A stretch of 54,785 bases of DNA from a virus. The position numbers were made by a program, and so were the translations under genes. The stretch's first letter is position 1; every line of letters starts with the position of its first letter. A model generated the notes under the pieces. The model worked only from the letters and a program-made list of their open reading frames with translations. It was not told the origin of the DNA and searched no databases. The stretch is taken from positions 1-54,785 of IMG/VR virus record IMGVR_UViG_3300032241_002057; one strand, 5' to 3'. This document shows, piece after piece, positions 8,549 to 54,575 of this stretch.

Positions 8549-8556
8549 TATTTATC
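8549..8556 (-). promoter_or_regulatory. Late-type box GATAAATA abutting a start codon
   Basis: Minus-strand GATAAATA at the very end of the giant gene. One base separates it from ATG 8547 and four from ATG 8544. If used, the message would begin at or within the start codon. Confidence 0.4.
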
Positions 8557-11500
8557 AGGATCCCGAATGTTCTAAAAGGAATATTCCCAGCTCGCTATTG
8601 CTATATTGTAATCCGTTTGGTGTTGATACCCAGGAATACCCACCTGGTATTTGCACCTGTATTCCTGCATCAATCACAGTAGAGCCGCTAGCGTGACTTA
8701 ACTGAGTAGTATAGCTTATATTTGTCAATGAGGTTATTTGTATATTTTTAACTCCGTTATCTGGGGGATTATTAAAGATCACATATGTAGGTTGCTCTAA
8801 ATTTGGAGGTCCAAAACTATAATCAATTGTTTCTACCTGTATAACTCCGTCTACAAATATAGTAGTTGATATAGCAGGTGCTGCAGAATCAATAAAAAAT
8901 TCTCGTGTACTGCCATCGCCATTATACCATGTTGTGCTATACATGGTTTCTGGAGATCCACTGGTCCCCAAACGGTTTCTAGCGATGCCAACTAGGAATG
9001 CACGATTTGGATTATCAATGGTTGGAGCAATTTGTATTTGTGTGAAGCTTATCAGTTCGTTATTGATATACACTAATCCTGGGACACTTTGAATAGGAGG
9101 TGTTATTACCGTAACATCTGCTATCTCTATGCTATTGCTATACGTGTAAACGTTGCTGAGTAGAGTAGTTTCTCTTGTCGGATCTAATGCAGTTGACAAT
9201 GTTGCATCCCATCCAGTTGTTGTACGCCATGCAATTGCAGGAGCCTCTGGTAATCCTGCCATATAGGATATGACAATTGGGGTATTAGTTGTCCAACCAG
9301 ATTGATTTGGTATATAGACTTGTAATTGCTTTGGAAGTTCAATATCCCATGCATTTGTGCTCCATGAACTTTTTTCCCAGCCGCTAGAATCAGGCAATGT
9401 TATTAATTTATAATTCACTTGCGGAGTCTGAAGTGTATTATTGTACCAAACTTGAATGGTACCGGTATCTATCGGATAATCTGCTAATATATATGTACCT
9501 TCGTTATTAGCTACGAATTCTTCGGTACGGAATTCGTAATCTATATCTTGCGAATAAGTGGTAATTATTATTTGATCATCTACTTGTATAGAACCTGATA
9601 AAAATGTAATTGTAGAGCCAGACAATTGATACTCGGTATCAGAATTTACACATAGAATAACAATTGCTGCACCATTTAATATTGGATTTGGAACAATTAC
9701 AGGTGTATCGCCTACAAGTATAGTTTTTATGAAATTTATTGTTTTTGCAGATAAATCTAAAATGTAATCAGTGTCTGAGGTTAACAAGCAACTGTCAACA
9801 TAGACCTGCGGATACCCACTAGATGCACCGGTTAAGTCTATATCTATAATGAATTCAGCTTGATATCCGTTACCAACCCATGTTTCCATTAAAGGAGGTT
9901 GCATAATTTGACCATTTTTTCTCACTAGAGTAGATACATACGGTGGTTCCGTGCCAACTGGAGCTGTAGTGATATTGTATGTTAATATTGAAGAATTTGT
10001 AAAGGTGATCATAGTCTCGGTAACTTGAGAAAAACTGCTGTTATCAAATGTTGCAACGATTATTGTCGATCCATATGCAGGCGGCGGCACTATATCTATG
10101 CCTGGTGACGGATTGCTAAAATATGTGAAACCTGGAGTACCATTAGGTATAACAACGCCATCTATTACCACCATAACACTATTATTGGTAATATTTAAAT
10201 TTGGTATAACCTTGTGAAACGAAATTCCGTCTCCTACAAAATTGTACAAATTCAAGTTGTCTGTAAATGACAAATTAAACTTTGCATCTACACCATACCC
10301 GTAATCCCATGCATAATCATCCCATTTTCCTGTATCCCAATATGCACCGTTGTTTTGAACTCCGCTGATATCTGATTGTGAAACTGGCTGTATTGGTAAC
10401 TGAGGATATAAACCGGGGTCATATATACTTACAGTCAATATATCATTTTGATCACCGACTGATTCTACTTGAATCTTAGCAGGTCTAACAGTACCAATTG
10501 TTTGAAATGGTATATTAGCACCTAATGTTATGATGTCTCCTACACTATATCCACCGCCGCCTGATACTATATATGCATTAGCTACTGAACGACTACCGCC
10601 GCCGAACCCAATACAAGTAATATAAAGTATTTGACCTGCAGCAGGTGTTTCGATTAATACCAATCGTTTTGTGTCAAAGTTAACAACGGCATCGCCCCCT
10701 GCACCTATACTTAACAGAGTACCGTTAAGATACGCTAGCACAGATTGATTGCTCTGAGGAACTATTAATAGATCAAACTGATCTGTTACACCATCGGTTT
10801 GATATACACGGGTGCTAACAAGAGGTCTCCCGCCATTTTTTATAGAATATGTATCCATGATTAAACAATCGCGGGGTAACATAGGATACAATTCTTCTGG
10901 ATGATTATCATCTACATATGGTTGTATAAATTGATAACCGTCGTATATAGAATCACTGAGATCGTATGACGGTTCTTGGAAGGTAGTACCTATATAAAGA
11001 ATATAAATGTTTGGAGTAGAGCTGCTCGCAGGCGGTGTAAAGAATTGTATATAGCTGCAATCCCATACTATACCTATAGTAGCATTTGTTCCGCTACCCG
11101 GATATACTGATGGGTAAACAGTTTGATATGGTCCCGGGGTTACAGTGTTATATGAGCCTTTACCGAGTATTTTAACAGACGTTATACTTCCATGGCTCAC
11201 CGACAATACCTGCAATCTAACAGGTACAAGTCCAGATCCTGCTACTACATTGATTTGATCTCCAACGGAATAACCTGATCCGCCATTAACAACATATGCA
11301 TCTAGTGCATATGTTGGTATGATCCAATCTACGCCATATAATTTTAATGATCCGTCTGCCCAAACTACTAAATTGTTTGGATTTTGTGCACCAGGTAATA
11401 ATGGAAATGATATGCTGCTGCCGTTGCCTATAGCTGTATTATAATTTGGAATCTGACCGCCTTGTATAATTTGATCGAGATATGCGTCTATCACAAACTG

Positions 11501-14500
11501 ATTTGCATCCCATCCAATTAATCCTCCCCACGGACCGGCTGACCAACCTGGTTCAGTTTGGAAGCCTAAATTTCCTATAGTCTGACCTTTGTATAAAACT
11601 CCTTGCATTAGATCTGAAATAATATTTGGTATCATACCTGGTGTTGGCGCATAATATTCGGCTATTCTTGTCTGTGCTCCAAAGTTTTCATTGATGCGTT
11701 CAGCTGACCAACCAAAAATTGACCAACTATCTCCCCAACCCGGAACTAGTGCAGGTGTACTAATTCTATCAAATATTATTTTAGTAGAAAGTTGTCTAAC
11801 TAAGGATGGGTCAATATATTGTTGCACTGATATAGATGTTGAAGCAGCATAGTTATTGAACCATGCTTGATACGTTTCGTAATATGATGTCCCTTCTAAA
11901 TTAGAAGATTCTACGGCTATATTTCCGGGTAATACTGCAACATTTGGCGTATTTGTTGTTAGATACGCATATGGGACATCAAAATCAACTACCGATACAT
12001 TACCATAATTTAAAGCAGAATATCCGTTTGTGTAATTTTCTATTTGTGCGTGATACGGTTTAGCTTCATTAATAAAATCGAGTATACTCTGCGTATTATC
12101 AACTGCAAGTAATGGCGGTTGTCCAAGATTCTGATTAAATCCTGTAAAGACCATATTGCTTGTTTTGAATATCCAGTCTGCTTGCAATTGTTCTGAAACA
12201 ACATAATTAGTCATTGCAAAAAACAACGTATTCAGTTCGATGCTGTTTGGACCCGGATATATTGCATAATATATGCCGTCAATGATATTCGCGAATTCTG
12301 TAGAAGCATTGTCATCAAAACTTGGAGTAGGATTGAAAATATTTCCAGTTCCTGCACTGTCAAATGGTGCTCCGTCAAAGCCGCCAAAATTCTCGGCCCA
12401 TTGATATATTGAAGGTAATATTTCAATACTACCGTTCTGTTGAGCAACCAGCGCCCAACTACCACCTAAAAATGCATACCATTGATAATTTCCATCGCCG
12501 CCGTTAACTACTTCGACAATCTGCCCTGCAGAAGGATTGATAATGGTATCTAATGCTGCAATTGTTGGTACACTTTGAGTTGGAGTATTTGTATTATTAT
12601 ATCCGGCTGCATACCAAGTTACATAATTCCAATATCTCGATGTATTATATGCTTGAATTTGAGTTATTGTCCAAATTTCATTACCAAGTGGTGTATATTC
12701 CCATATAGTCCATAAACTTAAAGTTGTGCTATTTGAATCAACTAAGATTAATTGCCCGGGTATTATAGCCCCAATTAATCCGTCTCTCTGTGCAAGGTCT
12801 GCTACCTGATAGTCCCAATTAGTAATGGTCTGAATTGCTGTTACATTGATAGATTGAACAGCTATTGATATGCCATTGATTTCTCCGTCGCTAACAGTTG
12901 TTACAACTGGTCTACCATTTATGCTTGTTGATAGTTGGAATGTTGTTATGGTAGGTGTACCAATGACATAATATGTGGTTCCAGACGTATATCCAACAAT
13001 ACTTCCGCTCGAAAATGTACCTGTTATAACAACTGCTTGTCCTACAGCTAAAGGTGATATTAAAGTTGCACAAGAAAAAATACCTGTTACTGTAATAATA
13101 GCAGGAGACGAGATAGCAACATCAGAATTTGCAAATGTGTTTAAAATCACAGGTAGATATTGATAATTAGAGTAAACATTAAATGTTGTTTGACTTAAAA
13201 TATCGAGAACGTAATATGTATTACCGGCTATTAATCCGCCAACAGAATTGGAAAAAACAATTGGTTGACTAGGCTTCATACCTAATGTACTGTTTACGCT
13301 GATGTAACTAGTAGAAGTACCTATAATATAATACAATGTATTATTTGTGATATTTGTTGCAACAGTATCTGACACAACAGATGTTGTAAGATTTATTGCA
13401 TATCCACCTGGAGTATCAGATATAGTAAATTGAGTTTTGCTGATAATTGATAGTACGTAATATATGCTATCTTTGTTTATCTCACCAAATGAATTATTGA
13501 ATTTTATTTCGTCGTTGATTGCTAGATTTTCTGTGGTTACAGTTGTCACGCAACTATGAGTAATTGATGTTACATTTAACGAAATAGACGTGTATTGAAC
13601 AGGTAGCGGCTCGGCAGCATCAAAATAATTACGCCAACTTGATTTTGCAGGATCATATACTATAGGAGTTGTGCTAGATGCAACTAGACTATTAAATGTA
13701 TCAACAAATAATGCACTAGCACTTTCTCTGTTAACAAACCATGTTTGACGTGGTCTAATAAACGTTCCGTATCTATTATAGACATTGAGATGATAATCTG
13801 GTACATCATTACCTAATCCATCAAACGTAACAAGGCTGACTTTTAATCGAGACCAAACGGTTGGATTAATTGGACTAGTAGGATCTCCCTCACGTATCAA
13901 TTGCCATTCACTATAAATGTTTTCGTTGTTAGCTTTAGATGTGTAATTAATACGTTGCGATATTTGCACCCCATTGAGAAGATTTTTAATATTGCCTAAT
14001 ATTATGCTATTATTACTGATAGCAGCATACCATGGTACATTTGTTAAGCTTGGATTTTGTATTAGATTAGATATACCTTGAGTAGATAGAGATCTTGAAA
14101 TAACAGCTGGCGGCATCGTACTATTGCCTACCCAGAAATAATAATATGTTGTTGGATTATTTTGTGAATCATATTGATTTATTTGTGACCAATTAAACGT
14201 ACTGATCACAATACCAGATGGTACAAGTTGATTACCGTTTACAGTAATCACAGTACCGTTTGCTACAGCAGTATCCCATTCAGTAGGGGGAATACTGCTT
14301 TGTATCCATTCATATACTATTACGGTAGTACCAGGTGCTATTTGTCCCCAAGTGTTGATTCTATAAGACTCGTCGCCTTGTTCATAATCTATGTATCTTA
14401 CTTGTGAAACATCCCACCATGTTTGCCCAAGTTGAGCACTGCTCCATGCTAATGTAGGATTGACTAAAAATCCAGATGTATCTCCGCTATTATATGTTGC

Positions 14501-17500
14501 TGGATCAACGTCTGTTATATAGTTTAGTTCTTGCTGTGCTTGACCTGGTATTCGTCCTTTTACAGGATCAAAATATTCTAAACTTGCTAAATTTTCCCCG
14601 GTATTTAAATTGAAAATTTGACTAGATTGTATTAGATTGGTATCTACTTGTAAAGGTTGTTGCCTATATGCAACAAATCCATTTTGTGTATAATTGTATA
14701 CGGTCCATGCATTTGGTACGATACCTCCTTGATCAACATACACTAAATTACCTGGCATGTATCCGCCTGGAGGAGCACTGGTATCTCTATCAAATATACT
14801 AGCAAATCTCATAGGTCTATAAACCCAGATAGTTCCACCGGTACCTGGGACAAAGGTGCTAAGGTCGATATTAAATGTTGTGGGAGTAACAGAGTTAATA
14901 ATGTAGGTATTATTAATTTCTGGAACGCCGTTTACACCGAATATCACACATATATCACCATTAAGAAGACCGTGGGGCTCGTTGGTCACTATTGTAGTAG
15001 GTTCACCAAACACTTGACTTTGTATAGTATACGACGGTTGACTTATTGCAACAGCTAGTATCCACATCATCCATTCGCCGTTATCGGTTATAAATTGCCA
15101 AACAGTGTTGTAAGGATTTAGCGGATTATTAGTTGTACTTTGTTGCAAATATAATCCTAATAAATCATTAGTATTCACTGCATAAAAATTTGATTCACCT
15201 AATTGAGCATATCCTGCTGTTGGAATATCAGATGAAGGGTCGCTTGCATATGACGATCTAAGACCAAATATGTTTGTGGTATATGTAGCAGGAGGAGTAA
15301 TGAAAAGCGGATCGTTAGCAACTAAATCAAAAACATTAGAGAATTGATTATTGCTGGTTGCACTGAAAAATCTTATCCATTGCGGATCATAATTTATATC
15401 TGCTTGAGGAAGAATATATTCCATTTCTACATTCAGTGCTGTAGCACCATAAGTACCAACTCTTATCATCCATTCATCGTAATAATTAAAGGTACTACCT
15501 GTAGGTATTACAGTACTACTACGTAACAATGCATTAACTGTTGCTAGAGTTCCTTTTTGACGTATAAATCCTTGATAAAATTGAAATTCAACTGACTCAT
15601 CTAATAATAAATTTTCTAAATAATTTCGAGGTTGGTATCCAATTAAATGCTTTGAAAGATTAGCTATATCTTGATCATCTATTGCACCAAGAGTGGTAGA
15701 CGATGTTATTGTATTTGTACCACCGTATGTGATTTTTTCGTAATTTTTCGGCTCATCGATATTGAAATATCTAGTAAAATCGCTAGCAGTTTTTTCAAAA
15801 TTGTTGGTCATTGTCCATGTATTTGACGATATTGTTTGGCCGTTGACCGTTACGTTGTTTTGTATTACTATATAACCTGGAGCATCTATTGTACCATCCC
15901 ATCCGTTAGCACGATATGTATAGATTTTTATACGTTGCTGTTGTAGATTATAAAGAGGTTGATATATTACATCTCCAAATGCTGTTAAATTATCGAAAAA
16001 TACCGCATGTTCCATAGTTGTAGTAAACAACCGGAGGCCATATACACCTTGATCGTTGTTTGGTTGTATTGTGATTGTGCCATTGTCTCTCAAAACATTG
16101 AGATTTTGCGATTGAATTGGATTACCAGCTTTATCGACTACAGGGTATGTACCTGCAATAATTCCGTTTACATATTGTATCATACCTACGGATTGAAATA
16201 GCTGCGTAGATCCTGCACTTGGGCTCAACGCGATTATAGTACCGTTAGCCCAAGATCCCTGTGCCCAAAGTAAGAATTCTTTTGCGCTTTGGCTCCAATT
16301 TAAGACAGCACCAGCATTAACGTCGTATTGTTCAAATACCCAACCTTGGCTAGTGAGCCATCTACCATAACTGATTAGAAAATCATAAACTTGTTGATAA
16401 CTTGTCATTACGGTGTTGTATAACACTACATTAGTAACGTTGATTTGGCCAGATTGATATTCAGTAACCTGTTGATTACCGATAACAATGTTAACCTTAG
16501 GTCCGGCTGTATTTGATGGTATGGTTGTGAAATATGGATTAACAGCGTCATACCCATATACTGTCCAACCGCCGTTGATTTGCTGAATAACAACTCCGCT
16601 ATAAACATATGTTCCGGTACTGGTGCTTCTATAGAGATAAGTGCTGATATTTTCGGATGGTACTATTTGACTGTTATAACCAAGCTGTCCAAAACTATCA
16701 ACTACAGCTCTAAAATTGGTAGTATTAATATAACCTGCCATTCGATGAGCCAATTGAACATTGCCACCTCGAATTATGCTACCGATATAATTGGTCACAG
16801 CTAGACCTTGAGATACGATATATTCGGTTATCCATACTTCAAAACCTGCACTAGCAAAATATGCCAAATTAGATTCGTTGGGAACATTTACTCCTGTAAC
16901 TAGAGTATTAGGTGTTTCTCTATTGATGTAGAATTGATTGCTAGCTCGTCTAGTGTTTGTATCGATATAAATCCATTGACTTTCTGCGGTATCCGAATAT
17001 ATTTGTTCAGTTCGTAAACTATCCCAGGTATATTCAATAAATGCAGCAGGTTTCATCAAGTACCCGGTAACAGATTGAACAAATGGATAATATTGAGAGT
17101 GTATCCATGCTGACTCAACCGGTCCTCCGTCACCAAATACCCAAGGAGCTTGCGCTGCATGAACAGTTGGTAGGTAACCAGCGCATCCTGCTTGAACTGG
17201 AGGTAGCAAATTGCCTTGAGTATCAACTGGTATGCAGCTCAATAACCCAGGACGAGCCCATACACTATATGTTCCTGCTCTAGGTCCTTGGCGTATAATG
17301 CCATTAGCTAAGTCTTGCCACAATGCTGTGTTACCACTAGTATAAGGCGCTGCGCCGTATTGAGATGTCCACCACGATGGTTGTTGAGAAAATCCAAGCA
17401 TTTCCCACGGGCAAATATGCGGACGATCAGTATCATAGAACCAACGGTATATTCCTTGCCATCCTCCTGGAATAGGATTTCCTTGCGGATCAGTAACTGT

Positions 17501-20368
17501 ACTATAATTGTAACTAAATGGGTCATCAGAATTATAGCCGGTATTTGATTGCCAATCTACCTGATTGTTTATTGCCCATTTATCAAATGCGCCTCTCTGT
17601 AATTGAATGTATTCAGCAGCGGTATAATCAGTTGTTCTCCAGCGACCCGGTTTATACGTTGTTATATCAAAAACTAGAGTTGTTTCAGGATTACTATATT
17701 GAGGTGGTAAGTTGTTAAACATGTTTAACTCAAATTGTAACCAAGCTGCTGCAACTGGATTTGTTAGTTGCTCTGGGTTATCAGTCATCTGCTGATTGTG
17801 AAGTATTGTTCCTAGCTGATTACCTTGATTATCTACCATAACAATACGTGCACCGTCGTGAGTTTGTATTGTTAGCTGAGGGGTTAGATAGCTGGTATCA
17901 AAGTATACCATAGGTTGAAAAGCAGAGGTAATACCTAATCTAGTAGCAGTTGCTGGGATATATAAAGGCGTAGACGCTTGGATCTGTCCATATGCACCGG
18001 GATATCCTCCATACCCTGTATTTGCCCACGGAGATGCAGGAGTTTTCCCAATATTAATTTGATTGAGAGCTGTTGTTAGCCACAGTGCGGTATTGTACGG
18101 ATCACACACAGATGGATCACTGTTTGCTGAAAAACCTTGCTGAGTAGCAATGTTAAACAACGCACGAATTAGTCGATTATAAAATCTAGTATAACTATTT
18201 TCTGCATATTGCATAGATTGAACAGGATCAGTTGGTGCAGTTGTTAGGTTAACATTTGACAACGGAACTGAGTTAAGCAAACTCAATTTGATCATTGGAG
18301 CTCTATGTTGTAGAATACTAAGGCCTAAACCTCTTTGCTGTGCAGTATCTCTATAATTGTTTACACCTAATGCCGAGCCAACTATACCAGTTTGATTTTC
18401 AATAATTTCTTGAAATTGTTGCAAAAACTGACTTCTACTAACTGTTGTTATTGGTAGATTATTTGGGTTTGCGCTGATGTTCAACGGAATTTGATAGTAC
18501 CCCGTTATATTCTCAGGTGCAACAGGATTCCACGATGCAATTTCGACGATGCTCCCTGCTGGTGCAGGAGATGTAAGAGTCACTACATTATTGTTTATAG
18601 TATAATCGATGCCGTTTATTAATAATGTCTCTGTTTGGTTGATATTAATATAAACGAATATTGTAGGTAATGTATTGATTTCTTGTACAGCTGGGGTTTG
18701 GTCTATAGTGAATACCGATGTTGCAGCTGAAATTACAAATTCATTTATGATATATTGTCTGCTTAATTGCGGTGCGGTATACCAACTATCAATATATGTA
18801 GTTGAATTGTTTACTCCTACTTTTGCAAACAGATACCCGTTATATTGAACTCGCTGAGAATTGTTAACATATGTAATGATATCTGTTTCTAGATTGTTGT
18901 TGAATACCCAATCACCAAATTGGTCAAGTTCTAATGATTGACCTATATAAGGATCAATTGGTTGATTAGGGTCTATTGCATATGAAAATACCTGGCTTCC
19001 TGCAAAATTACTACTTGGGTATATGCTAGGATCATTCAATGAGTTCCCGTCTACATCGTATAGTTGGAACAGAGGTGGTGTTAAACCTATCAATTGTTGA
19101 CAATTAGTAGTCCATTCGCTGTTATTGTATAAGATGTTAAGACCTTGATATTTTCCAAACAATACAACAGCTCTGTCCCCTTGCGACGGATCTCCGTTTG
19201 GTAATTGACATCCAAATGTGTCAACTGTTAATTGTATAGCACCGTTAGACACACCACTTACAATTAAAATTTTGCCTGCTACATCTGGGTGTTGATCAGC
19301 GATACCCAATATTCTCATACCATCTTGCAATGGTATTTGATTTATTGACCAAAACGGCTGTCCTACAATTGTACCGAATAAATTTGTATTTGTGTTGTCG
19401 ACTATTGTTATAGTACCGCGATTGTTTGTTCCGTAATTCCACAATTGAGTATTAACATCAAATTGCAATATAGGACGTTGTGCTTGAATTTCTGACAAAT
19501 TAGATACAGAAGAATTAGAGATAGCTATGACTTCTATGTGAAACCAGCGATTTCCTGCACTCCACTGATTATTGTCGACACATCCTCTGGCAATAGTTGC
19601 ATATAATGGTGATGATTCTAAATCACCTCCCCAACCATAAAGATCCCAACCTCCGAGATCCCAATTAGTTGATGCGGTATCAGTAAAATTAATTAATTGA
19701 ATGGATCGCCCAACGTTTCCAATAATAAATTGCTGTCCGTTTAATGATAAGGTGAGATCATTAGTTGGTATAATTTTAAGACCAGTTGTAAAAATTAGAG
19801 GTTTATCGGGTGTAAATGTAGCTAATGTGTTTGTAGATGTGTATAAAGCTGTACCTACGTAAGAAAACGATACCTGCCCTACCGCTGTGTTCTCTAAATC
19901 GGTTGTATCATACAACACTATGGCATCGGGTCCATTGGGTAACCAATAATAGTTTGAGTAATTAACAAACATGTCTAGGTCTATTGGCGGACTCCAAGAA
20001 TAATATTCTTGACTAAAAAGACGACTATGATTATTGGTTAATGCCCCTTGAAATGCCAGTTGTCCAATTAAATCCTCATAAAACATAGCGTTAGTGAGTT
20101 CTGGATTATTATAAGGATTACTCACAACCGTAGGGTCTAATTGGTAATTCTCTCTATTTGAATCTGGTTCAGGAATGTAAAAATCAGTTGATGAATTATA
20201 CCAAGGAGGTATATGTCCTACATAACCATCGAGAAATTCGACGCTTTCTGGTTGAAAGAGATGATTAACGGTTGCATTAAAAACCTTTTTTAATGCGTCT
20301 GTTTGCAAATACCCTGGTAGAAGTTCTATTGGGTATCTTTTGATATACGTATTATCGATGTTAGCCAT
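8555..20368 (-). CDS. Giant 3937-residue baseplate-region virion protein (gp7 position)
   Basis: It occupies over a fifth of the window and the slot after gp6 that gp7 (1032 residues, baseplate wedge) holds in T4. The N-terminus (KRYPIELLPGYLQTD, FLDGYVGHIPPWYNSST) and a middle part near residue 1600 (NYLENLLLDESVEFQFYQGF) look like baseplate or tail structural sequence; I see no clear gp7 match. Much of the rest is beta-rich modules: repeated DG-or-NG, DY, PPA-G units near residue 590 and from about 2970 on, four related Y-YV/F-I units around 2280-2500, and two GG-GYSVGD units near 3030 and 3265. The ATG overlaps the gp6 stop by eight bases. It probably forms a large wedge or peripheral baseplate structure. 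Confidence 0.7.
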   Translation of the reverse strand: MANIDNTYIKRYPIELLPGYLQTDALKKVFNATVNHLFQPESVEFLDGYVGHIPPWYNSSTDFYIPEPDSNRENYQLDPTVVSNPYNNPELTNAMFYEDLIGQLAFQGALTNNHSRLFSQEYYSWSPPIDLDMFVNYSNYYWLPNGPDAIVLYDTTDLENTAVGQVSFSYVGTALYTSTNTLATFTPDKPLIFTTGLKIIPTNDLTLSLNGQQFIIGNVGRSIQLINFTDTASTNWDLGGWDLYGWGGDLESSPLYATIARGCVDNNQWSAGNRWFHIEVIAISNSSVSNLSEIQAQRPILQFDVNTQLWNYGTNNRGTITIVDNTNTNLFGTIVGQPFWSINQIPLQDGMRILGIADQHPDVAGKILIVSGVSNGAIQLTVDTFGCQLPNGDPSQGDRAVVLFGKYQGLNILYNNSEWTTNCQQLIGLTPPLFQLYDVDGNSLNDPSIYPSSNFAGSQVFSYAIDPNQPIDPYIGQSLELDQFGDWVFNNNLETDIITYVNNSQRVQYNGYLFAKVGVNNSTTYIDSWYTAPQLSRQYIINEFVISAATSVFTIDQTPAVQEINTLPTIFVYININQTETLLINGIDYTINNNVVTLTSPAPAGSIVEIASWNPVAPENITGYYQIPLNISANPNNLPITTVSRSQFLQQFQEIIENQTGIVGSALGVNNYRDTAQQRGLGLSILQHRAPMIKLSLLNSVPLSNVNLTTAPTDPVQSMQYAENSYTRFYNRLIRALFNIATQQGFSANSDPSVCDPYNTALWLTTALNQINIGKTPASPWANTGYGGYPGAYGQIQASTPLYIPATATRLGITSAFQPMVYFDTSYLTPQLTIQTHDGARIVMVDNQGNQLGTILHNQQMTDNPEQLTNPVAAAWLQFELNMFNNLPPQYSNPETTLVFDITTYKPGRWRTTDYTAAEYIQLQRGAFDKWAINNQVDWQSNTGYNSDDPFSYNYSTVTDPQGNPIPGGWQGIYRWFYDTDRPHICPWEMLGFSQQPSWWTSQYGAAPYTSGNTALWQDLANGIIRQGPRAGTYSVWARPGLLSCIPVDTQGNLLPPVQAGCAGYLPTVHAAQAPWVFGDGGPVESAWIHSQYYPFVQSVTGYLMKPAAFIEYTWDSLRTEQIYSDTAESQWIYIDTNTRRASNQFYINRETPNTLVTGVNVPNESNLAYFASAGFEVWITEYIVSQGLAVTNYIGSIIRGGNVQLAHRMAGYINTTNFRAVVDSFGQLGYNSQIVPSENISTYLYRSTSTGTYVYSGVVIQQINGGWTVYGYDAVNPYFTTIPSNTAGPKVNIVIGNQQVTEYQSGQINVTNVVLYNTVMTSYQQVYDFLISYGRWLTSQGWVFEQYDVNAGAVLNWSQSAKEFLLWAQGSWANGTIIALSPSAGSTQLFQSVGMIQYVNGIIAGTYPVVDKAGNPIQSQNLNVLRDNGTITIQPNNDQGVYGLRLFTTTMEHAVFFDNLTAFGDVIYQPLYNLQQQRIKIYTYRANGWDGTIDAPGYIVIQNNVTVNGQTISSNTWTMTNNFEKTASDFTRYFNIDEPKNYEKITYGGTNTITSSTTLGAIDDQDIANLSKHLIGYQPRNYLENLLLDESVEFQFYQGFIRQKGTLATVNALLRSSTVIPTGSTFNYYDEWMIRVGTYGATALNVEMEYILPQADINYDPQWIRFFSATSNNQFSNVFDLVANDPLFITPPATYTTNIFGLRSSYASDPSSDIPTAGYAQLGESNFYAVNTNDLLGLYLQQSTTNNPLNPYNTVWQFITDNGEWMMWILAVAISQPSYTIQSQVFGEPTTIVTNEPHGLLNGDICVIFGVNGVPEINNTYIINSVTPTTFNIDLSTFVPGTGGTIWVYRPMRFASIFDRDTSAPPGGYMPGNLVYVDQGGIVPNAWTVYNYTQNGFVAYRQQPLQVDTNLIQSSQIFNLNTGENLASLEYFDPVKGRIPGQAQQELNYITDVDPATYNSGDTSGFLVNPTLAWSSAQLGQTWWDVSQVRYIDYEQGDESYRINTWGQIAPGTTVIVYEWIQSSIPPTEWDTAVANGTVITVNGNQLVPSGIVISTFNWSQINQYDSQNNPTTYYYFWVGNSTMPPAVISRSLSTQGISNLIQNPSLTNVPWYAAISNNSIILGNIKNLLNGVQISQRINYTSKANNENIYSEWQLIREGDPTSPINPTVWSRLKVSLVTFDGLGNDVPDYHLNVYNRYGTFIRPRQTWFVNRESASALFVDTFNSLVASSTTPIVYDPAKSSWRNYFDAAEPLPVQYTSISLNVTSITHSCVTTVTTENLAINDEIKFNNSFGEINKDSIYYVLSIISKTQFTISDTPGGYAINLTTSVVSDTVATNITNNTLYYIIGTSTSYISVNSTLGMKPSQPIVFSNSVGGLIAGNTYYVLDILSQTTFNVYSNYQYLPVILNTFANSDVAISSPAIITVTGIFSCATLISPLAVGQAVVITGTFSSGSIVGYTSGTTYYVIGTPTITTFQLSTSINGRPVVTTVSDGEINGISIAVQSINVTAIQTITNWDYQVADLAQRDGLIGAIIPGQLILVDSNSTTLSLWTIWEYTPLGNEIWTITQIQAYNTSRYWNYVTWYAAGYNNTNTPTQSVPTIAALDTIINPSAGQIVEVVNGGDGNYQWYAFLGGSWALVAQQNGSIEILPSIYQWAENFGGFDGAPFDSAGTGNIFNPTPSFDDNASTEFANIIDGIYYAIYPGPNSIELNTLFFAMTNYVVSEQLQADWIFKTSNMVFTGFNQNLGQPPLLAVDNTQSILDFINEAKPYHAQIENYTNGYSALNYGNVSVVDFDVPYAYLTTNTPNVAVLPGNIAVESSNLEGTSYYETYQAWFNNYAASTSISVQQYIDPSLVRQLSTKIIFDRISTPALVPGWGDSWSIFGWSAERINENFGAQTRIAEYYAPTPGMIPNIISDLMQGVLYKGQTIGNLGFQTEPGWSAGPWGGLIGWDANQFVIDAYLDQIIQGGQIPNYNTAIGNGSSISFPLLPGAQNPNNLVVWADGSLKLYGVDWIIPTYALDAYVVNGGSGYSVGDQINVVAGSGLVPVRLQVLSVSHGSITSVKILGKGSYNTVTPGPYQTVYPSVYPGSGTNATIGIVWDCSYIQFFTPPASSSTPNIYILYIGTTFQEPSYDLSDSIYDGYQFIQPYVDDNHPEELYPMLPRDCLIMDTYSIKNGGRPLVSTRVYQTDGVTDQFDLLIVPQSNQSVLAYLNGTLLSIGAGGDAVVNFDTKRLVLIETPAAGQILYITCIGFGGGSRSVANAYIVSGGGGYSVGDIITLGANIPFQTIGTVRPAKIQVESVGDQNDILTVSIYDPGLYPQLPIQPVSQSDISGVQNNGAYWDTGKWDDYAWDYGYGVDAKFNLSFTDNLNLYNFVGDGISFHKVIPNLNITNNSVMVVIDGVVIPNGTPGFTYFSNPSPGIDIVPPPAYGSTIIVATFDNSSFSQVTETMITFTNSSILTYNITTAPVGTEPPYVSTLVRKNGQIMQPPLMETWVGNGYQAEFIIDIDLTGASSGYPQVYVDSCLLTSDTDYILDLSAKTINFIKTILVGDTPVIVPNPILNGAAIVILCVNSDTEYQLSGSTITFLSGSIQVDDQIIITTYSQDIDYEFRTEEFVANNEGTYILADYPIDTGTIQVWYNNTLQTPQVNYKLITLPDSSGWEKSSWSTNAWDIELPKQLQVYIPNQSGWTTNTPIVISYMAGLPEAPAIAWRTTTGWDATLSTALDPTRETTLLSNVYTYSNSIEIADVTVITPPIQSVPGLVYINNELISFTQIQIAPTIDNPNRAFLVGIARNRLGTSGSPETMYSTTWYNGDGSTREFFIDSAAPAISTTIFVDGVIQVETIDYSFGPPNLEQPTYVIFNNPPDNGVKNIQITSLTNISYTTQLSHASGSTVIDAGIQVQIPGGYSWVSTPNGLQYSNSELGIFLLEHSGS

Positions 20369-24807: not shown

Positions 24808-25257
24808 TTAGTTCTTCGCCGCGTAAGCCTGTTGTGTCTTTAGACCAACAGATAGGCGCAGCGTTCTCCCTTGATTGTTAATATATTGTTCGATAATTAA
24901 TCTGTCAACGTCGCCCACTGAACTAATAAATGAACTACGATTCCAAAATACATGTCGTTTCCAGAATTGCTTTCGCAGATCAGCTTCAAATTTATTCCAT
25001 AGTTCGTAACTGGTTTGTTGTTTAATTACCTTAACAATTTGACTCGGACTTATATCAGGTCTAGCAGATACTAGTATATGAATATGATCTTTGTCGTGAT
25101 TAATTGTATCTATTGAAAATTTATGTGAAGTAGTTAATTGATTTATAATAGATATTATAAAATCACCATAGGTATTCATTAGCGGTTTTCGATATTTTAT
25201 AGTCAATACAATGTGATATTTGATCGAATATATAGAATTTGTTGTTTTTTGATACAT
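24808..25257 (-). CDS. tnpA: TnpA, HUH-Y1 transposase of the IS200/IS605 family
   Basis: 149 residues, the usual size for single-tyrosine HUH transposases. H58-I-H60 in KDHIHILVS is the metal-binding HUH motif and Y125 in IIEQYINNQG is the nucleophile that forms the 5' phosphotyrosine. The protein excises and inserts the element as single-stranded DNA by recognising the end hairpins. I chose ATG 25257 (MYQKTTNSIYSIKYHIV), where family similarity begins, rather than upstream codons. Its last codons form part of the left-end hairpin. A CATAAATA box lies 32 bases upstream, overlapping the tnpB start. Confidence 0.9.
   Translation of the reverse strand: MYQKTTNSIYSIKYHIVLTIKYRKPLMNTYGDFIISIINQLTTSHKFSIDTINHDKDHIHILVSARPDISPSQIVKVIKQQTSYELWNKFEADLRKQFWKRHVFWNRSSFISSVGDVDRLIIEQYINNQGRTLRLSVGLKTQQAYAAKN
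24829..24851. repeat. Left-end subterminal hairpin of the IS element
   Basis: CTGTTGTGTCT, TT, AGACCAACAG: an imperfect stem that TnpA would recognise on single-stranded DNA. Its right arm is identical to the right arm of the hairpin at 26539-26560. Confidence 0.6.
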
Positions 25258-25289
25258 TAAAGTGCTCTTTTTGACATCTGAACTAAATA

Positions 25290-25297
25290 TATTTATG
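25290..25297 (-). promoter_or_regulatory. Late-type box before tnpA
   Basis: Minus-strand CATAAATA, 32 bases before the tnpA start. On the plus strand the same place reads ACTAAATA five bases before the tnpB ATG. It would tie transposase expression to the phage late sigma, but could be chance in AT-rich DNA. Confidence 0.25.
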
Positions 25298-26563
25298 ACA
25301 ATGATTGCGTACAAATATCGTATCTATCCAACAGCAAAGCAAGAAGAACAGCTTGTTGGCTGGTTAGGACAACTGCGATTTGTATGGAATAAGCTACTAT
25401 CTGACAACCAAACCCAATACGCGGCAACCAAAACATTCGCATTTTTGTTTGAAATGAAGCGCAAATTACCTCAGATGAAGAAAGATTATAACTGGATTGA
25501 CGCTCCGTCACAAGCACTTCAGAATAAAGTGTTTGACCTAGATCAGGCGATGAAAAATTGCTTCAAATTTGGACGCGGGTTTCCGAAGTTCAAATCAAAA
25601 CACTATGATAACTCGGGTATTGAAATATCACAGGTTGCGCAAATAGACAAAGATACTAACCAAGTTACTTATAGACAAATTAGGTGGGATGACCAAACCA
25701 TAAGTATACCAAAACTTGGCAAAATGAAGTGGGTGTATCATAGACGAATTAAAGGTAGATTGCTATCAATTACAATCAAACGCGATGTAGACCAGTGGTA
25801 TGTATGTTGTTTGGCAAAACAAGAAGCAAATAAAAACAACGCAATAGTAGTTGATGAAAAAGATTGTGTTGGGTTAGATCTAGGCCTAAAGGATTTCTTC
25901 GTATCAAGCGATGGTCCAGTAGCACCAACACCAAAAATATATCGAAGTAAGCAAGAAAAACTAAAGCAAAGACAACGTAGGCTGTCACGAAAGAAGAAAG
26001 GCAGCGCAAATCGCAACAAAGCACGAATCAAAATTGCTCGGTTGCACAGAACTATAAGAAATACGCGACTAGATTGGCACCACAAATTAAGTAATTTGAT
26101 AGCCAAGAATTACTCCGTGGTACTGGTCGAAGACCTCAATATCAACGGGATGATTAAAAACAGGAAGCTGGCCAAGGCCATCCAAGATCAGGGCTGGGCT
26201 CAATTCGTTACACTGCTATCATATAAATTAGAATGGAATAATGGGTTGTTGCACAAGATTGATCGATGGGCTGCTAGCACTAAGACCTGTAACTGCTGCG
26301 GATCAAAGAAAACATTAACGTTAAGTGAAAGAACATATGTATGTTCCAATTGTGATAATGTGATGGATAGAGATCTAAATGCAGCAATCAACATCAAGAA
26401 TTGGGGAATAGACGACATCAATACCGCAGGAACTGCGGGAATTTACGCCTGTGGAGATACCGCTGTCGGGGATATATCACGTGAAATATCTAGACATGTA
26501 TCGTTTGAAACAGGAACCATTCCTTCGTTGGAAGGAAGCTGTTGGTCTTCAGACCAACAGTAG
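25295..26563 (+). CDS. tnpB: TnpB, RNA-guided nuclease of the IS605 family
   Basis: 422 residues from ATG 25295, the normal size. The RuvC active site is complete: D195 in CVGLDLGLKD, E279 in SVVLVEDLNINGM, and D360 in DRDLNAA. Between the last two lies the zinc ribbon with C332, C335, C350 and C353. TnpB uses an RNA made from the 3' end of its own gene to cut DNA matching the flank, helping retain the element after TnpA excises it. The C-terminal tail after NTAGTAG is variable and lies over the hairpins of the presumed guide RNA. No ribosome site is visible before the start. Confidence 0.92.
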   Translation: MTMIAYKYRIYPTAKQEEQLVGWLGQLRFVWNKLLSDNQTQYAATKTFAFLFEMKRKLPQMKKDYNWIDAPSQALQNKVFDLDQAMKNCFKFGRGFPKFKSKHYDNSGIEISQVAQIDKDTNQVTYRQIRWDDQTISIPKLGKMKWVYHRRIKGRLLSITIKRDVDQWYVCCLAKQEANKNNAIVVDEKDCVGLDLGLKDFFVSSDGPVAPTPKIYRSKQEKLKQRQRRLSRKKKGSANRNKARIKIARLHRTIRNTRLDWHHKLSNLIAKNYSVVLVEDLNINGMIKNRKLAKAIQDQGWAQFVTLLSYKLEWNNGLLHKIDRWAASTKTCNCCGSKKTLTLSERTYVCSNCDNVMDRDLNAAINIKNWGIDDINTAGTAGIYACGDTAVGDISREISRHVSFETGTIPSLEGSCWSSDQQ

Positions 26564-27161: not shown

Positions 27162-27188
27162 AACCGCGTGTTTTTTGGACACGCGGTT
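27162..27188. terminator. Strong hairpin between the Cys-rich gene and rimK-like gene
   Basis: AACCGCGTG and CACGCGGTT form a nine-base-pair stem with loop TTTTTTGGA. Read on the minus strand, the stem is followed by TTCTT, so it suits minus-strand termination better than plus. The rimK-like late box begins four bases downstream. Confidence 0.45.
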
Positions 27189-27191
27189 CTT

Positions 27192-27199
27192 CATAAATA
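27192..27199 (+). promoter_or_regulatory. Late-type box CATAAATA seven bases before rimK-like start
   Basis: CATAAATA, seven bases, then ATG 27207. No ribosome site is present between them. Confidence 0.45.
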
Positions 27200-27206
27200 T
27201 GGTAGC

Positions 27207-28091
27207 ATGGCAGATATATGGATCCTTAGCAGGAAAAATGACGAAGAATATGAAAATCGTCGTCTTTTAGAATCATTTTCAACTCAAAATATCGATAGTA
27301 TATTAGTTCATCCAGACACCTTAGATTTAGTCGCGAATAGAAAAGATTTACCAAATGTTTGGTTAGATGGCAAACGAGTTGAAATGCCTAAAGCAGTTTT
27401 GGCTAGAACAGGTAGCGGATCGAATTATTTTTGTTTAGCCGCTATGAGACAACTAGAAAATATTGGCATACCAGTTATTAACTCTAGTGCAAGTATCAAT
27501 CGGGTTAAAGACAAATTAGAAACTAGTCAGCTTTTAGCTAGGCATGGTATTCCGATACCTAAAACCATGCTTGTACGATGGCCAATCAATGAGGATATAG
27601 TTGACAACGAAATTGGATGGCCGTGCGTGGTAAAGGTAATAACAGGGAGTCACGGTAAGGGAGTGTATCTTTGTAAAGATCGAAATAGTTTTGCAGAGCT
27701 TATGGAATTAATTAATAGTCTCAGTACCAATAAGAGTATAATTATACAAGAATATATAGGGTATAGAGTGGGAACTGATCTTCGTGTATGGGTCGTAGGA
27801 GGCAAGGTTATAGGAGCAATGCAGCGAACCTCTGCTAACGATTTTAGGGCTAATATATCAAACGGAGGCACAGGCGAGCCATATATTTTAACGCCTGAAA
27901 TCGAATTTATATCTCGAGAAACTGCTCGAATACTTGATTTAGACATAGCTGGCGTTGATTTATTGTTTGATAAAGACGGTTTCAAAGTTTGCGAAGCAAA
28001 CTCTAGCCCGCAATTTTTCGGCATCGAAACCTATTGCAATATGGATGCTGCTCGAGCAATAGTTGACTATATCAATTTTCGTATGTCCTGA
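27207..28091 (+). CDS. rimK: RimK-family ATP-grasp ligase
   Basis: 294 residues. The ATP-grasp pattern is clear: CVVKVITGSHGKGVYL is the nucleotide loop, IIQEYIG with GTDLRVWVVGGKVIGAM is the central part, and GVDLLFDKDGFKVCEANSSP supplies the metal-binding Glu and Asn. RimK adds glutamate residues to the C-terminus of ribosomal protein S6; relatives make other amide bonds. In a phage it may modify the host ribosome or a phage protein. I chose ATG 27207 (MADIWILSRKND); the open frame upstream runs through a hairpin. No ribosome site is seen. It converges on gp5. Confidence 0.85.
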   Translation: MADIWILSRKNDEEYENRRLLESFSTQNIDSILVHPDTLDLVANRKDLPNVWLDGKRVEMPKAVLARTGSGSNYFCLAAMRQLENIGIPVINSSASINRVKDKLETSQLLARHGIPIPKTMLVRWPINEDIVDNEIGWPCVVKVITGSHGKGVYLCKDRNSFAELMELINSLSTNKSIIIQEYIGYRVGTDLRVWVVGGKVIGAMQRTSANDFRANISNGGTGEPYILTPEIEFISRETARILDLDIAGVDLLFDKDGFKVCEANSSPQFFGIETYCNMDAARAIVDYINFRMS

Positions 28092-35594: not shown

Positions 35595-36956
35595 ATGTCT
35601 ATTGCACCTCCAGCTACTAAAATAAAATACTTAACAAATAAGGATTTACTAGAAGAAATACACCGTAGCAAGCTATCATACTGTAGCTTTGTTGACCCTA
35701 TGCACGCAAAGTATGATTTTATAGTTGCGAATATATCATTAATTACTCAGAAACGAATAGATGATGCAAGAAAAAAGAAACTTGCTGAAATTCAAGCCGT
35801 TGAAAAAAAAGAACATATCAATCGTGGGATCAAAGATTTTAAGAGTAAATGGTCAATCGATGATATACCTGCCGAAAGCATCGTGGTTAGAGTTATGACA
35901 TATGATCATATACCTATCAATCCAGAAAAAGTTGGCAAGGCTAAAACCGAAGGTGAGCGTCATATACGTTGCAATTTTCCGCCATTTCAACATTATATTA
36001 TGCAAGATGATCAATTAAAATGTGTATTAAAAAGTCACTGGCAAGGTGGATTAGAAAATGGTTATTTTTCAAAAGATCACGGCAAAATGACCAACAAACT
36101 AGCAATGATGTTTATGAAACTGGTTGATCGTTATGGTCATAGAGGGAACTGGCGCGGTTATTGTGTTGATACCGAGACTGAGGCTTTGACTACAAAGGGG
36201 TTTTTACGTCATGATCAAATAACAGAAAATGATACGATCTTGTCGTGTTGTAACGGTGTTCTCACGTGGTCTAAAATTAAAAGTATCTATCGTGGAGAAT
36301 TTTCCGGAAAAATGTTTTATCTAACTTCTCCTGGTATGGATGCACTTGTAACACCTAAACATAAATTCCTCACCTTATCGGGATTAAAAGAAGTAGAGCA
36401 TATTGATCATACAGATACCATTGTACTGTTGGGCAAAGGTGTTTCTGATTTGTCAGCTCTTCAAATAGATGCTATACCAAGACAAGATCTGTATGATATT
36501 CTTAATATTTGTAACGGAGAAATGAATCAAGGATTACCAAATAATGTAAGTGCCGGTGGAATAGACTTTCACGGAGGCTGGAGAGGTTATGGTCCGGAAA
36601 ATTCTCCTGTGGTAGCATACACTGGTATAGTTTGGTGTCCTGAAACAGAATATGGGTGTTTTGTTGCTAGGCGCAATGGAACTATATATTTAACTGGAAA
36701 TTCATATCTTGAGGAAATGAAAAGTCAAGCATTGTTACAGCTCAGTCAGGTTGGTTTACAATTTGACGAAAGTAGAAGTGATCAACCGAATCCGTTTGCA
36801 TATTATACTCAGACTATCACTAATTCTTTTATGCGTATATTACATGTTGAAAAGAAAAATCAAACAATACGAGACGATATGTTAATAATGCATGATTCGT
36901 CTCCTAGTTGGACACGACAAACTGATGATGCAATCAAACAACAAAAGGATTCATAA
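35595..36956 (+). CDS. gp55: gp55, late-transcription sigma factor, interrupted by an intein
   Basis: 453 residues as translated; 273 after removal of an intein at residues 190-369. The exteins join as NWRGY and SYLEEMKSQALLQLS, continuing LQFDESRSDQPNPFAYYTQ, TNSFMRILHVEKK and PSWTRQ. This is the sigma region 2-like core of gp55 in T4-like marine phages, and gp55 directs polymerase to TATAAATA late promoters through the sliding clamp. T4 gp55 is 185 residues; the longer N-terminus (YLTNKDLLEEIHRSKLSYC) resembles the cyanophage form. The start has an AAAGGA ribosome site and a sigma-70-type promoter upstream. Splicing would be needed to rebuild region 2. Confidence 0.85.
   Translation: MSIAPPATKIKYLTNKDLLEEIHRSKLSYCSFVDPMHAKYDFIVANISLITQKRIDDARKKKLAEIQAVEKKEHINRGIKDFKSKWSIDDIPAESIVVRVMTYDHIPINPEKVGKAKTEGERHIRCNFPPFQHYIMQDDQLKCVLKSHWQGGLENGYFSKDHGKMTNKLAMMFMKLVDRYGHRGNWRGYCVDTETEALTTKGFLRHDQITENDTILSCCNGVLTWSKIKSIYRGEFSGKMFYLTSPGMDALVTPKHKFLTLSGLKEVEHIDHTDTIVLLGKGVSDLSALQIDAIPRQDLYDILNICNGEMNQGLPNNVSAGGIDFHGGWRGYGPENSPVVAYTGIVWCPETEYGCFVARRNGTIYLTGNSYLEEMKSQALLQLSQVGLQFDESRSDQPNPFAYYTQTITNSFMRILHVEKKNQTIRDDMLIMHDSSPSWTRQTDDAIKQQKDS
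36162..36701 (+). mobile_element. Intein (180 residues) in gp55
   Basis: Residues 190-369 of the gp55 reading frame. It starts with Cys190 in CVDTETEALTTKGFLRHDQI (block A), has the T-x-x-H block B as T253-P-K-H256 in VTPKHKFLT, and ends CPETEYGCFVARRNGTIYL-TGN (blocks F and G) with Asn369 before Ser370. The penultimate residue is Gly, not the usual His; similar TGN endings occur in other phage inteins. About 90 residues between blocks B and F lack LAGLIDADG or HNH motifs, so it looks like a mini-intein without its own endonuclease. The reading frame is open through both borders. Confidence 0.88.
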
Positions 36957-52837: not shown

Positions 52838-52867
52838 AGAAAACCCAGGAGAAATCTTGGGTTTTCT
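52838..52867. terminator. Bidirectional terminator between gp23 and the homing endonuclease-like gene
   Basis: AGAAAACCCA / TGGGTTTTCT with a ten-base loop, followed by ATTTTG on the plus strand. It sits over the stop codon of the convergent reverse gene. Confidence 0.75.
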
Positions 52868-54575
52868 ATTTTGTGCTCGTTAGCTGTAACTCCCATTTGA
52901 TTTTACCGCAGTCCCAAATCCTGTCATACCCTAATTCCTGTAAAATTTGCCATTCCGTTTTATCTAAATCGATATCTGGATGTAGTTGTTGTAATTTCAC
53001 TTTATTAAGACTTAATTTATGATGTTTTATTGTGTAGTTCTCTACATATTGTTGCATAGGGGGTACTGTACCAACTTGCACAAATCCTAATTTTTTATAT
53101 AAATCACCTTGGCTATATCTGTTATCACTGAAACTAATGATTGATACTGGGTGATATGTATCAACAAACGAAGTTAACAACCTACTGGCACCACCAGGTA
53201 TCATGTTTTTTGATGCAAATCTTATAAGCTCGTAACGATGGTTAGAATCCTTTACAAAGCTCATCAATGCTACTAGCTCGCCTTGATGCTCTAATCCAAT
53301 ATTAATAGGAAGTTTTGTGGGAGATCCTAATAAATGATATGAGTTATAAAAATCAATGCTAGATTGACGAGATGGAATAACTACCCTGCACTTGCGTGCA
53401 CCGATATTCCTCAACCCTGTGCCAAGCTTGGACCTTATGATATTTTCAACTATTGTCCTTTGATGTAACCATTCGTCGCTAAACACGGTGATCAATTCAA
53501 TTCCTACATTCCTAGCTGCTGCCCATTTTCTATAATGATAATTCCAGCTTTTTTTCCCGCTACGCTCGCTATGCCAATATAGTCCGCAGTATTCGATACC
53601 AATATTTAAATCTGGTATGTATATGTCTATTTCGTATGGATATATGACTGCTCGATCACCGCTTATTACATTACACTTGATTTGTGTGTTGACAAAATTC
53701 AACAAATCCAGTTCTTCTTTGCTTTTGTAACTTGTGTCGGTTGGATAGCATATCTTGCATTTAGGTAGTGATGCATAGTCAAACCTTTTGTCAAATGTAT
53801 TTCCGCATGAAATGCATTCGAATGATATAACTGGTCTAGTTTGTACACTTATGTACTGCTCTTCGGTAACCAATGCATTCAAATTGAAATTTTCGCGTAT
53901 CATCTGGATGAATCTTTTATGATTTTTCTTAGCCAGATGATGCGGCGAATATTGTTCTAATTTGGTCAGTTTGGCTTTGTTAGCAACTCGTTGGAGTTGC
54001 ATTGGATTTTCTACACCATATTTTTCTAAATTGGTCACCTTGCGTTTTTTCTTTACTTCATCCAGTTGTGCAACGTTGTTTACTCCATATTTTGCAAGTA
54101 TGGTTGCTTTCTGTTTATCTAGTTGATTGTTGATATTTTCTTGATTTGAATAAAAATTTTGATGTGCAAGTTTAGCTACAGGTGTTTGACCAGAATTAGT
54201 AACTCCGTATTTTAGAAGATTAGTGTTTGCACGTTTTTGATTGATTGTGATTTTTTTCTCATCACTAAGAGAGTTGTGTGCATCAGAGATTTTTTTTGAT
54301 ACAGATTCACGCATACATTGGCATTCTTTAGCGTTACCGCAAAATCCATAACCTTTGACTATGCTAACAAATCTTTTTGGTTTATTTGTTATAACGCAGC
54401 AATTTGACTCAATACCGTTTATTATCAAAAATGCACGTTCTGTTAATGACAATGATGGTGACAAATAATCGGTCGTGCTACATATCCATCGTAAAAGTTC
54501 TTTGTCTTTTTTGATATTATTCCCTAACGATTTAGGTGAAGTTTCCTTTACCAATCTCTGCAAACGTTCCAGCAT
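52866..54575 (-). CDS. Homing endonuclease-like protein (EDxHD/Vsr-like nuclease) with a C-terminal acetyltransferase-like domain
   Basis: 569 residues. Three short repeats (LLKYGVTNSGQ, AKYGVNNVAQ, LEKYGVENPMQ; residues 118-193) are DNA-recognition repeats common in phage homing enzymes. A zinc pair C254/C257 with C273/C276 follows. Residues 281-380 are a Vsr-like nuclease: SKEELDLL, EIDIYIPDLNIGIEYCGLYW with D317 and E328, H335, and VFSDEW. Residues about 390-510 look like a GNAT or Mom-like domain (LIRFASKNMIPGGASRLL, KKLGFVQVGTVPP). Freestanding homing genes often sit beside gp23. AAGGAAAAG ribosome site. The nuclease call is firmer than the C-terminal one. Confidence 0.7.
   Translation of the reverse strand: MLERLQRLVKETSPKSLGNNIKKDKELLRWICSTTDYLSPSLSLTERAFLIINGIESNCCVITNKPKRFVSIVKGYGFCGNAKECQCMRESVSKKISDAHNSLSDEKKITINQKRANTNLLKYGVTNSGQTPVAKLAHQNFYSNQENINNQLDKQKATILAKYGVNNVAQLDEVKKKRKVTNLEKYGVENPMQLQRVANKAKLTKLEQYSPHHLAKKNHKRFIQMIRENFNLNALVTEEQYISVQTRPVISFECISCGNTFDKRFDYASLPKCKICYPTDTSYKSKEELDLLNFVNTQIKCNVISGDRAVIYPYEIDIYIPDLNIGIEYCGLYWHSERSGKKSWNYHYRKWAAARNVGIELITVFSDEWLHQRTIVENIIRSKLGTGLRNIGARKCRVVIPSRQSSIDFYNSYHLLGSPTKLPINIGLEHQGELVALMSFVKDSNHRYELIRFASKNMIPGGASRLLTSFVDTYHPVSIISFSDNRYSQGDLYKKLGFVQVGTVPPMQQYVENYTIKHHKLSLNKVKLQQLHPDIDLDKTEWQILQELGYDRIWDCGKIKWELQLTSTK

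Follow-up and report, generated by a model that had tools for sequence, protein, structure and literature searches.

Inteins, mini-inteins and inteins in essential phage genes are well known, and a penultimate His is usual in class 1 inteins without strictly defining them. The gp41-1 intein, which is of phage origin, is split, resides in a DNA helicase and has this usual His. It is a class 1 intein whose block G has Thr where the gp55 intein reported here also has one (PMC7664689), and its structure (PDB 6qaz) is a fold match. The archaeal TFIIB (Mvu) mini-intein (PDB 5o9i) also sits in a transcription initiation factor and matches the HINT fold, although its host is archaeal, the factor is unrelated and the similarity is only distant.

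The inteins in the phosphoesterase recombination directionality factors (RDFs) of mycobacteriophages Bethlehem (gp51) and Switzer (gp53) share Cys1 and the block B His with the gp55 intein (PMC5050341), and that of Switzer gp53 also has VWC in block F and a TGN↓S end with penultimate Gly (arrows mark junctions). They differ in host protein and in carrying an endonuclease, and their similarity is modest (85 bits to the gp55 intein family HMM; L193). In experiments, the Bethlehem gp51 intein, which has a penultimate Gly, spliced to completion (Kelley et al. 2016, PMC5050341), and a His put in place of this Gly made it slower (PMC5050341). Portal-protein inteins of Gordonia phages Woes and Hail2Pitt and of Caudovirales GX15bay have the same VWCP...TGN↓S pattern, Cys1 and full-length architecture, and score 119-149 bits against the family HMM over their best stretch. 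In contrast to the gp55 intein, they occupy a portal protein and have a Trp in block B, with the full WCT motif of class 3 inteins (Trp B:12, Cys F:4, Thr G:5; positions from PMC5050341, definition also in PMC7664689) present in Hail2Pitt and GX15bay.

An intein also occurs in the same gene of a cultured phage, Synechococcus phage B23, at the homologous site NFANY↓C...TGN↓SYKEDL (371 bits to the family HMM; L191). It differs from the intein described here in its 340-aa length and its endonuclease, and the B23 gp55 is much shorter and diverged. The intein is absent from the annotation of this gene (gp289; MN695335.1 174984-176498), whose record gives the product as 'hypothetical protein' with the note 'phage T4-like gp55'. 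A search of the literature, in which few subscription journals were covered and absence is not proof, found no intein in gp55 or in any other phage sigma factor. Within that coverage, no earlier account seems to exist of the gp55 intein, of the homing series there or of a second gp55 site seen in two relatives, and the gp55 junction counts as a new, well-populated intein site.

The gp55 gene and its insert

The window analysed here is the whole 54,785-nt stretch of viral DNA. Its ORF at 35595-36956 (+) is stop-free over 453 aa and encodes a T4-type late sigma factor gp55 with an in-frame insert at residues 190-369 (180 codons beginning with Cys and ending with Asn; the next residue is Ser). 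The features of the locus are as follows.

35595..36956, + strand: gp55 gene carrying the intein; 453-aa precursor, expected spliced product 273 aa
35595..36161, + strand: N-extein, residues 1-189, ending ...GNWRGY (phrog_12791 best stretch 8-190; empty-site alignment)
36162..36701, + strand: mini-intein, 180 residues, Cys1 to Asn180 (empty-site alignment, family, predicted fold)
36162..36200, + strand: block A, CVDTETEALTTKG (Cys1); Cys1, Leu9, Thr10 and Gly13 invariant in 47 relatives
36333..36374, + strand: block B, GMDALVTPKHKFLT (T64-x-x-H67); T64, P65 and H67 invariant in 47
within 36333..36374, + strand: Phe69, by alignment at the class 3 Trp position (H+2) of block B
36441..36602, + strand: residues 94-147, scar at the position of the relatives' LAGLIDADG endonuclease (alignments; IDFHGG relic)
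36618..36665, + strand: block F, YTGIVWCPETEYGCFV, with Cys159 at F:4 and without the block F His (family alignment)
36681..36701, + strand: block G, TIYLTGN, with Thr178 at G:5, penultimate Gly179 and Asn180; Gly and Asn invariant in 47
36702..36956, + strand: C-extein, residues 370-453 plus stop, Ser+1 then YLEEMKSQ... (phrog_234 stretch 370-449; T4 gp55 alignment); its start aligns with the sigma-R2 helix that docks on the RNA polymerase (RNAP) clamp helices (PDB 7d7c alignment; PMC7892883)
37165..39963, + strand: gp47/gp46 (SbcD/SbcC-like) genes, directly downstream of gp55 (PHROG matches)
7788, 35491, 42463 and 54641, right strand: TATAAATA late-promoter-like octamers, 38-73 nt upstream of genes

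Both flanks are gp55 by profile: phrog_12791 ('sigma factor for late transcription') aligns at E 1.7e-78 in two stretches, the best of which aligns residues 8-190 with profile positions 5-190, and phrog_234 ('late sigma transcription factor') matches residues 370-449. In aligned empty-site relatives, nothing lies between the equivalents of Y189 and S370, and NWRGY↓T/SYIDEM is continuous. The initial annotation had read a mini-intein without endonuclease at 36162-36701 and expected gp55 continuity upon its removal. The alignment with insert-less relatives gives exactly this join, and the coordinates are correct to the base; family alignment, predicted HINT fold and the lack of a LAGLIDADG motif agree with the mini-intein reading.

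The insert had also been placed just before the sigma region 2 core; it lies instead inside the sigma-R2 homology domain. The window extein shows a sigma-R2-like core related to T4 gp55, as seen in the PHROG matches and in the match of an empty-site homologue (L013), whose sole PDB match is T4 gp55 (7d7c, E 0.02). This alignment puts the junction between T4 Y63 and T64. In T4 gp55, residues ~42-122 form the sigma2-like domain (PMC2988020), and helix H3 holds the RNAP β′ clamp helices through E70, D74 and E77 (PMC7892883); the junction is 6-14 residues ahead of these contacts. Taken together, the T4 alignment and structure papers position the intein inside the sigma2-like domain, a few residues before the docking contacts, and by this alignment the insertion point is where the RNA polymerase-docking helix begins. 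An unspliced gp55 precursor would presumably be inactive. Since 180 residues sit just before the RNAP-docking helix positions, every late gene of the window phage would, on a fair reading, depend on gp55 splicing.

Within the insert, the intein motifs are strongly conserved. V157, W158, C159, P160 and T162 of block F are invariant in the 47 aligned members, as are D24, S28, W36, S37, G49 and M51 elsewhere, while Cys1 and the C-terminal Asn are found in 70 of 70 distinct inserts, with Ser or Thr at +1. Searches of Pfam, NCBIfam and, by sequence, the PDB with the single window insert gave intein matches that were all sub-threshold (Pfam Intein_splicing, E 0.009, 16.3 bits against a curated cut-off of 35.8; NCBIfam TIGR01445, E 0.09, cut-off not reached). 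This weak single-sequence Hint signal is resolved by the family alignment and the predicted fold. An AlphaFold2 model built on the family alignment reached a mean pLDDT of 93.0 and a pTM of 0.88, superseding an earlier five-sequence model (pLDDT 60.5). The best 50 PDB matches listed for it are all inteins or intein-like (BIL) HINT domains, with Ssp DnaB M86, AceL NrdHF, Mtu RecA, MchDnaB1, gp41-1 and others at the top (Foldseek probability ~1.0). The window insert is thus predicted to have a HINT fold; a Hint-domain match at residues 190-369, proposed earlier as a check, is obtained at the level of fold and not at the curated profile cut-offs. A Toxin_trans Pfam match (E 0.0012) in one of the 47 relatives was taken as chance.

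The gp47/gp46 genes adjoin gp55 in Synechococcus phage B23 as well. Overall enrichment of the TATAAATA late-promoter octamer in the window was rejected (8 found vs 10 expected); four of the eight sites precede genes on the right strand by 38-73 nt, which ranks first among 56 octamers of the same composition. One such box stands 73 nt upstream of a free-standing 569-aa ORF (52866-54575, -) that matches phrog_3339 'homing endonuclease' (E 5.7e-106) and Pfam DUF7487. The window also contains an IS200/IS605-type element at 24808-26563, with a Y1 transposase (-) and a divergent TnpB/OrfB (+), beside baseplate genes; a RimK-like ATP-grasp ligase gene at 27168-28091 (+; PF08443, E 5.1e-46); and a 3937-aa ORF at 8555-20368 (-) between tail-fibre-like and baseplate genes.

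Distribution and endonuclease loss at the gp55 junction

Scans of IMG/VR found the same junction occupied in many other gp55 genes, from dozens of uncultured large phages, and every delimitable insert recovered by intein-based patterns occupied this junction of a gp55-like protein. Of the 151 distinct gp55 alleles that span the site, 81 are empty and 70 occupied, a de-duplicated and search-biased sample that does not measure prevalence; a set recruited on intein-free gp55 added 26 distinct alleles, none with an intein. No cellular relative of the gp55 intein was confirmed in the genome collection.

On the gp55 extein tree, intein presence and absence require at least 16 changes, of which at least 8 are forced by well-supported branches, and one occupied allele (L004) sits among empty-site sisters. 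The inteins of L125 and of L004/L002 share 90-95% DNA identity, while their exteins share 64-66% (N) and 70-74% (C). For L125 and L004, the values are 90% in the intein, 66% in the N-extein and 74% in the C-extein, with extein identity peaking beside the intein at 77% and 82%, the pattern that co-conversion would leave. Another pair, L184 and L185, is 99% identical in the intein against 68-76% in the exteins. This identity ranking was filtered against misaligned divergent pairs. In pairs of relatives with enough substitutions, dN/dS was 0.03-0.12 for splicing domains and 0.13-0.40 for endonuclease domains, indicating that splicing is strongly selected and the endonuclease less so; no close relative of the window intein was found, and these figures concern its relatives. 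The patchy presence, the incongruent intein and extein identities and the low splicing-domain dN/dS argue for homing together with selection for splicing, and by these patterns the gp55 inteins are distributed as a homing element.

Most same-site inserts are 311-346 residues long and include a LAGLIDADG endonuclease. LAGLIDADG_3 is matched by 18 of the 47 family members at E 0.01 or better, and both endonuclease motifs (x-GWIVTEG and TMIDGDGW) are visible in most relatives; neither is present in the 180-residue window intein. It retains IDFHGG and an Asn-x-Pro stretch, which in relatives both belong to the segment after the endonuclease. Because this relic remains, the window intein is a mini-intein derived from a full-length intein by endonuclease loss. 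Endonuclease motifs are altered in five relatives (L001, L002, L118, L160 and L190), and short inteins in the same register occur at 147 aa (L113) and 236 aa (L036). Divergent gp55 proteins carry 255-aa mini-inteins (L167-L169), and a further intein of ~150 aa is cut by a contig end (L051). On the splicing-domain tree, whose deep branches are unresolved, the four mini-inteins tested need four separate changes. The branch of the window intein is long (0.84 changes per site), and the intein's parent lineage is left unnamed because the tree does not resolve its placement.

Two gp55 genes (L174:4135-5085, + and L188:4144-5115, +) are interrupted a second time, in the C-terminal half at (R/K)N↓CF, by inserts of 317 and 324 aa, respectively. 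These inserts start with CL(A/G)GD and contain FLRGW(F/V)A(A/T)DG, and that of L188 ends in Gln, not Asn; apparently they mark a second gp55 intein site. Two contigs of 360 and 204 kb (L172:2755 and L173:2755) encode a reduced, gp55-like ORF with a very short part before an endonuclease-bearing intein.

Predicted splicing chemistry and alternative readings

The class 1 features of the window intein comprise Cys1, the block B TxxH (T64 and H67 in 47/47), Asn180 followed by Ser+1, and a clean in-frame insert. A penultimate Gly is found in all 47 family members, and the block F His is likewise missing. The Gly had been regarded as an oddity of this copy; its presence is confirmed, and its invariance in the family makes it the rule. 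Because of that invariance, and because an RDF intein with Gly splices fully, the penultimate Gly is no defect. Two of the three class 3 residues are common in the family, with Cys at F:4 in 47/47 members and Thr at G:5 in 45/47; the third, Trp B:12, occurs among gp55 inteins only in L149 and is Phe69 in the window copy. With Cys1 present and the WCT motif incomplete, the window intein is, judged by these residues, class 1 by definition. Some otherwise near-invariant residues are replaced in it (R12 by K, W14 by F and Y29 by C), and these changes, with the long branch, make slow or impaired splicing conceivable.

The insert is very probably a protein-splicing mini-intein, left after deletion of the endonuclease from a gp55-specific homing intein. 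The ancestral intein would have spread as its LAGLIDADG endonuclease cut empty gp55 genes of co-infecting phages. In the present precursor, the HINT domain would fold out of the sigma-R2 domain, Cys1 would attack the Tyr-Cys bond, and the N-extein would then pass to Ser+1. Asn180 would cyclise with help from residues that stand in for the missing penultimate and block F His, and the product would be a 273-aa gp55. The splicing half would survive because the phage needs gp55 and the insert interrupts its RNAP-docking core, and we infer that the window intein itself splices.

A class 3-like route, in which the invariant block F Cys159 rather than Cys1 makes the first attack, is unlikely: the family-wide Cys F:4 and Thr G:5, the Trp of L149 and the portal inteins of Hail2Pitt and GX15bay, which match the family HMM and combine the full WCT motif with Cys1, all speak for it, but Cys1 is invariant (47/47, and 70/70 across the larger sample), which would be expected only of a residue that matters, the B:12 Trp is Phe in the window intein, and the RDF intein, which is similar, is placed in class 1. 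That the insertion is dead, with gp55 either non-functional or working as a long protein, is very unlikely. The long branch and the few substitutions at near-invariant positions would fit such a loss, whereas no splicing residue has been lost, the frame runs open through 453 codons, and positions that are invariant in relatives are conserved in the exteins, with up to 78% identity to the nearest one; moreover, gp55 is presumably in use, since TATAAATA late-promoter-like sites precede several window genes. There is next to no probability that the insert is an ordinary extra gp55 domain, such as a Hint-like accessory domain that stays in place. The weak Pfam score of the single sequence would be in keeping with this, yet 81 distinct alleles have a clean empty site, and the homologues bear endonucleases, the fold is that of an intein, and Cys1 and Asn are invariant with Ser or Thr at +1.

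The initial annotation had further suggested that splicing speed, redox state or temperature could time late expression. That the mini-intein is kept as such a switch, with slow or conditional gp55 splicing setting the timing of late transcription, is distinctly improbable. There is precedent for conditional splicing in the endonuclease-free DnaB intein 1 of M. smegmatis (PMC6195587), the site in the RNAP-docking core makes an inactive precursor plausible, and several mini-inteins occur at the site (147, 180 and 236 aa, 255 aa in divergent gp55, and the truncated one of ~150 aa). Against this, close relatives have an empty site or endonuclease-bearing inteins, gains and losses are scattered over the tree, the Gly-penultimate RDF intein splices readily, no regulatory features were found, and homing explains the presence of the intein without any benefit. 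A timing or redox role for gp55 splicing is possible and not supported, because sister phages whose gp55 is the same lack the intein, and homing and the cost of losing gp55 account for its presence. We likewise give little credence to the idea that phages keeping a gp55 intein free of endonuclease have co-opted gp55 splicing, with its noncanonical active site (Cys1 plus block F Cys, penultimate Gly), as a post-translational gate on late transcription.

Implications for phage late transcription

The mini-intein described here extends the range of intein hosts to a pivotal T4-type phage regulator, the late sigma factor. Intein-bearing gp55 genes can be mislabelled, as with the 'hypothetical protein' of phage B23. 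A single gp55 codon junction emerges as a homing hotspot at which empty sites and intact, damaged and deleted endonucleases are found side by side. The family offers ready material for tests of the homing cycle, of splicing when both usual histidines are missing, and of a possible splicing gate on a viral transcription programme.
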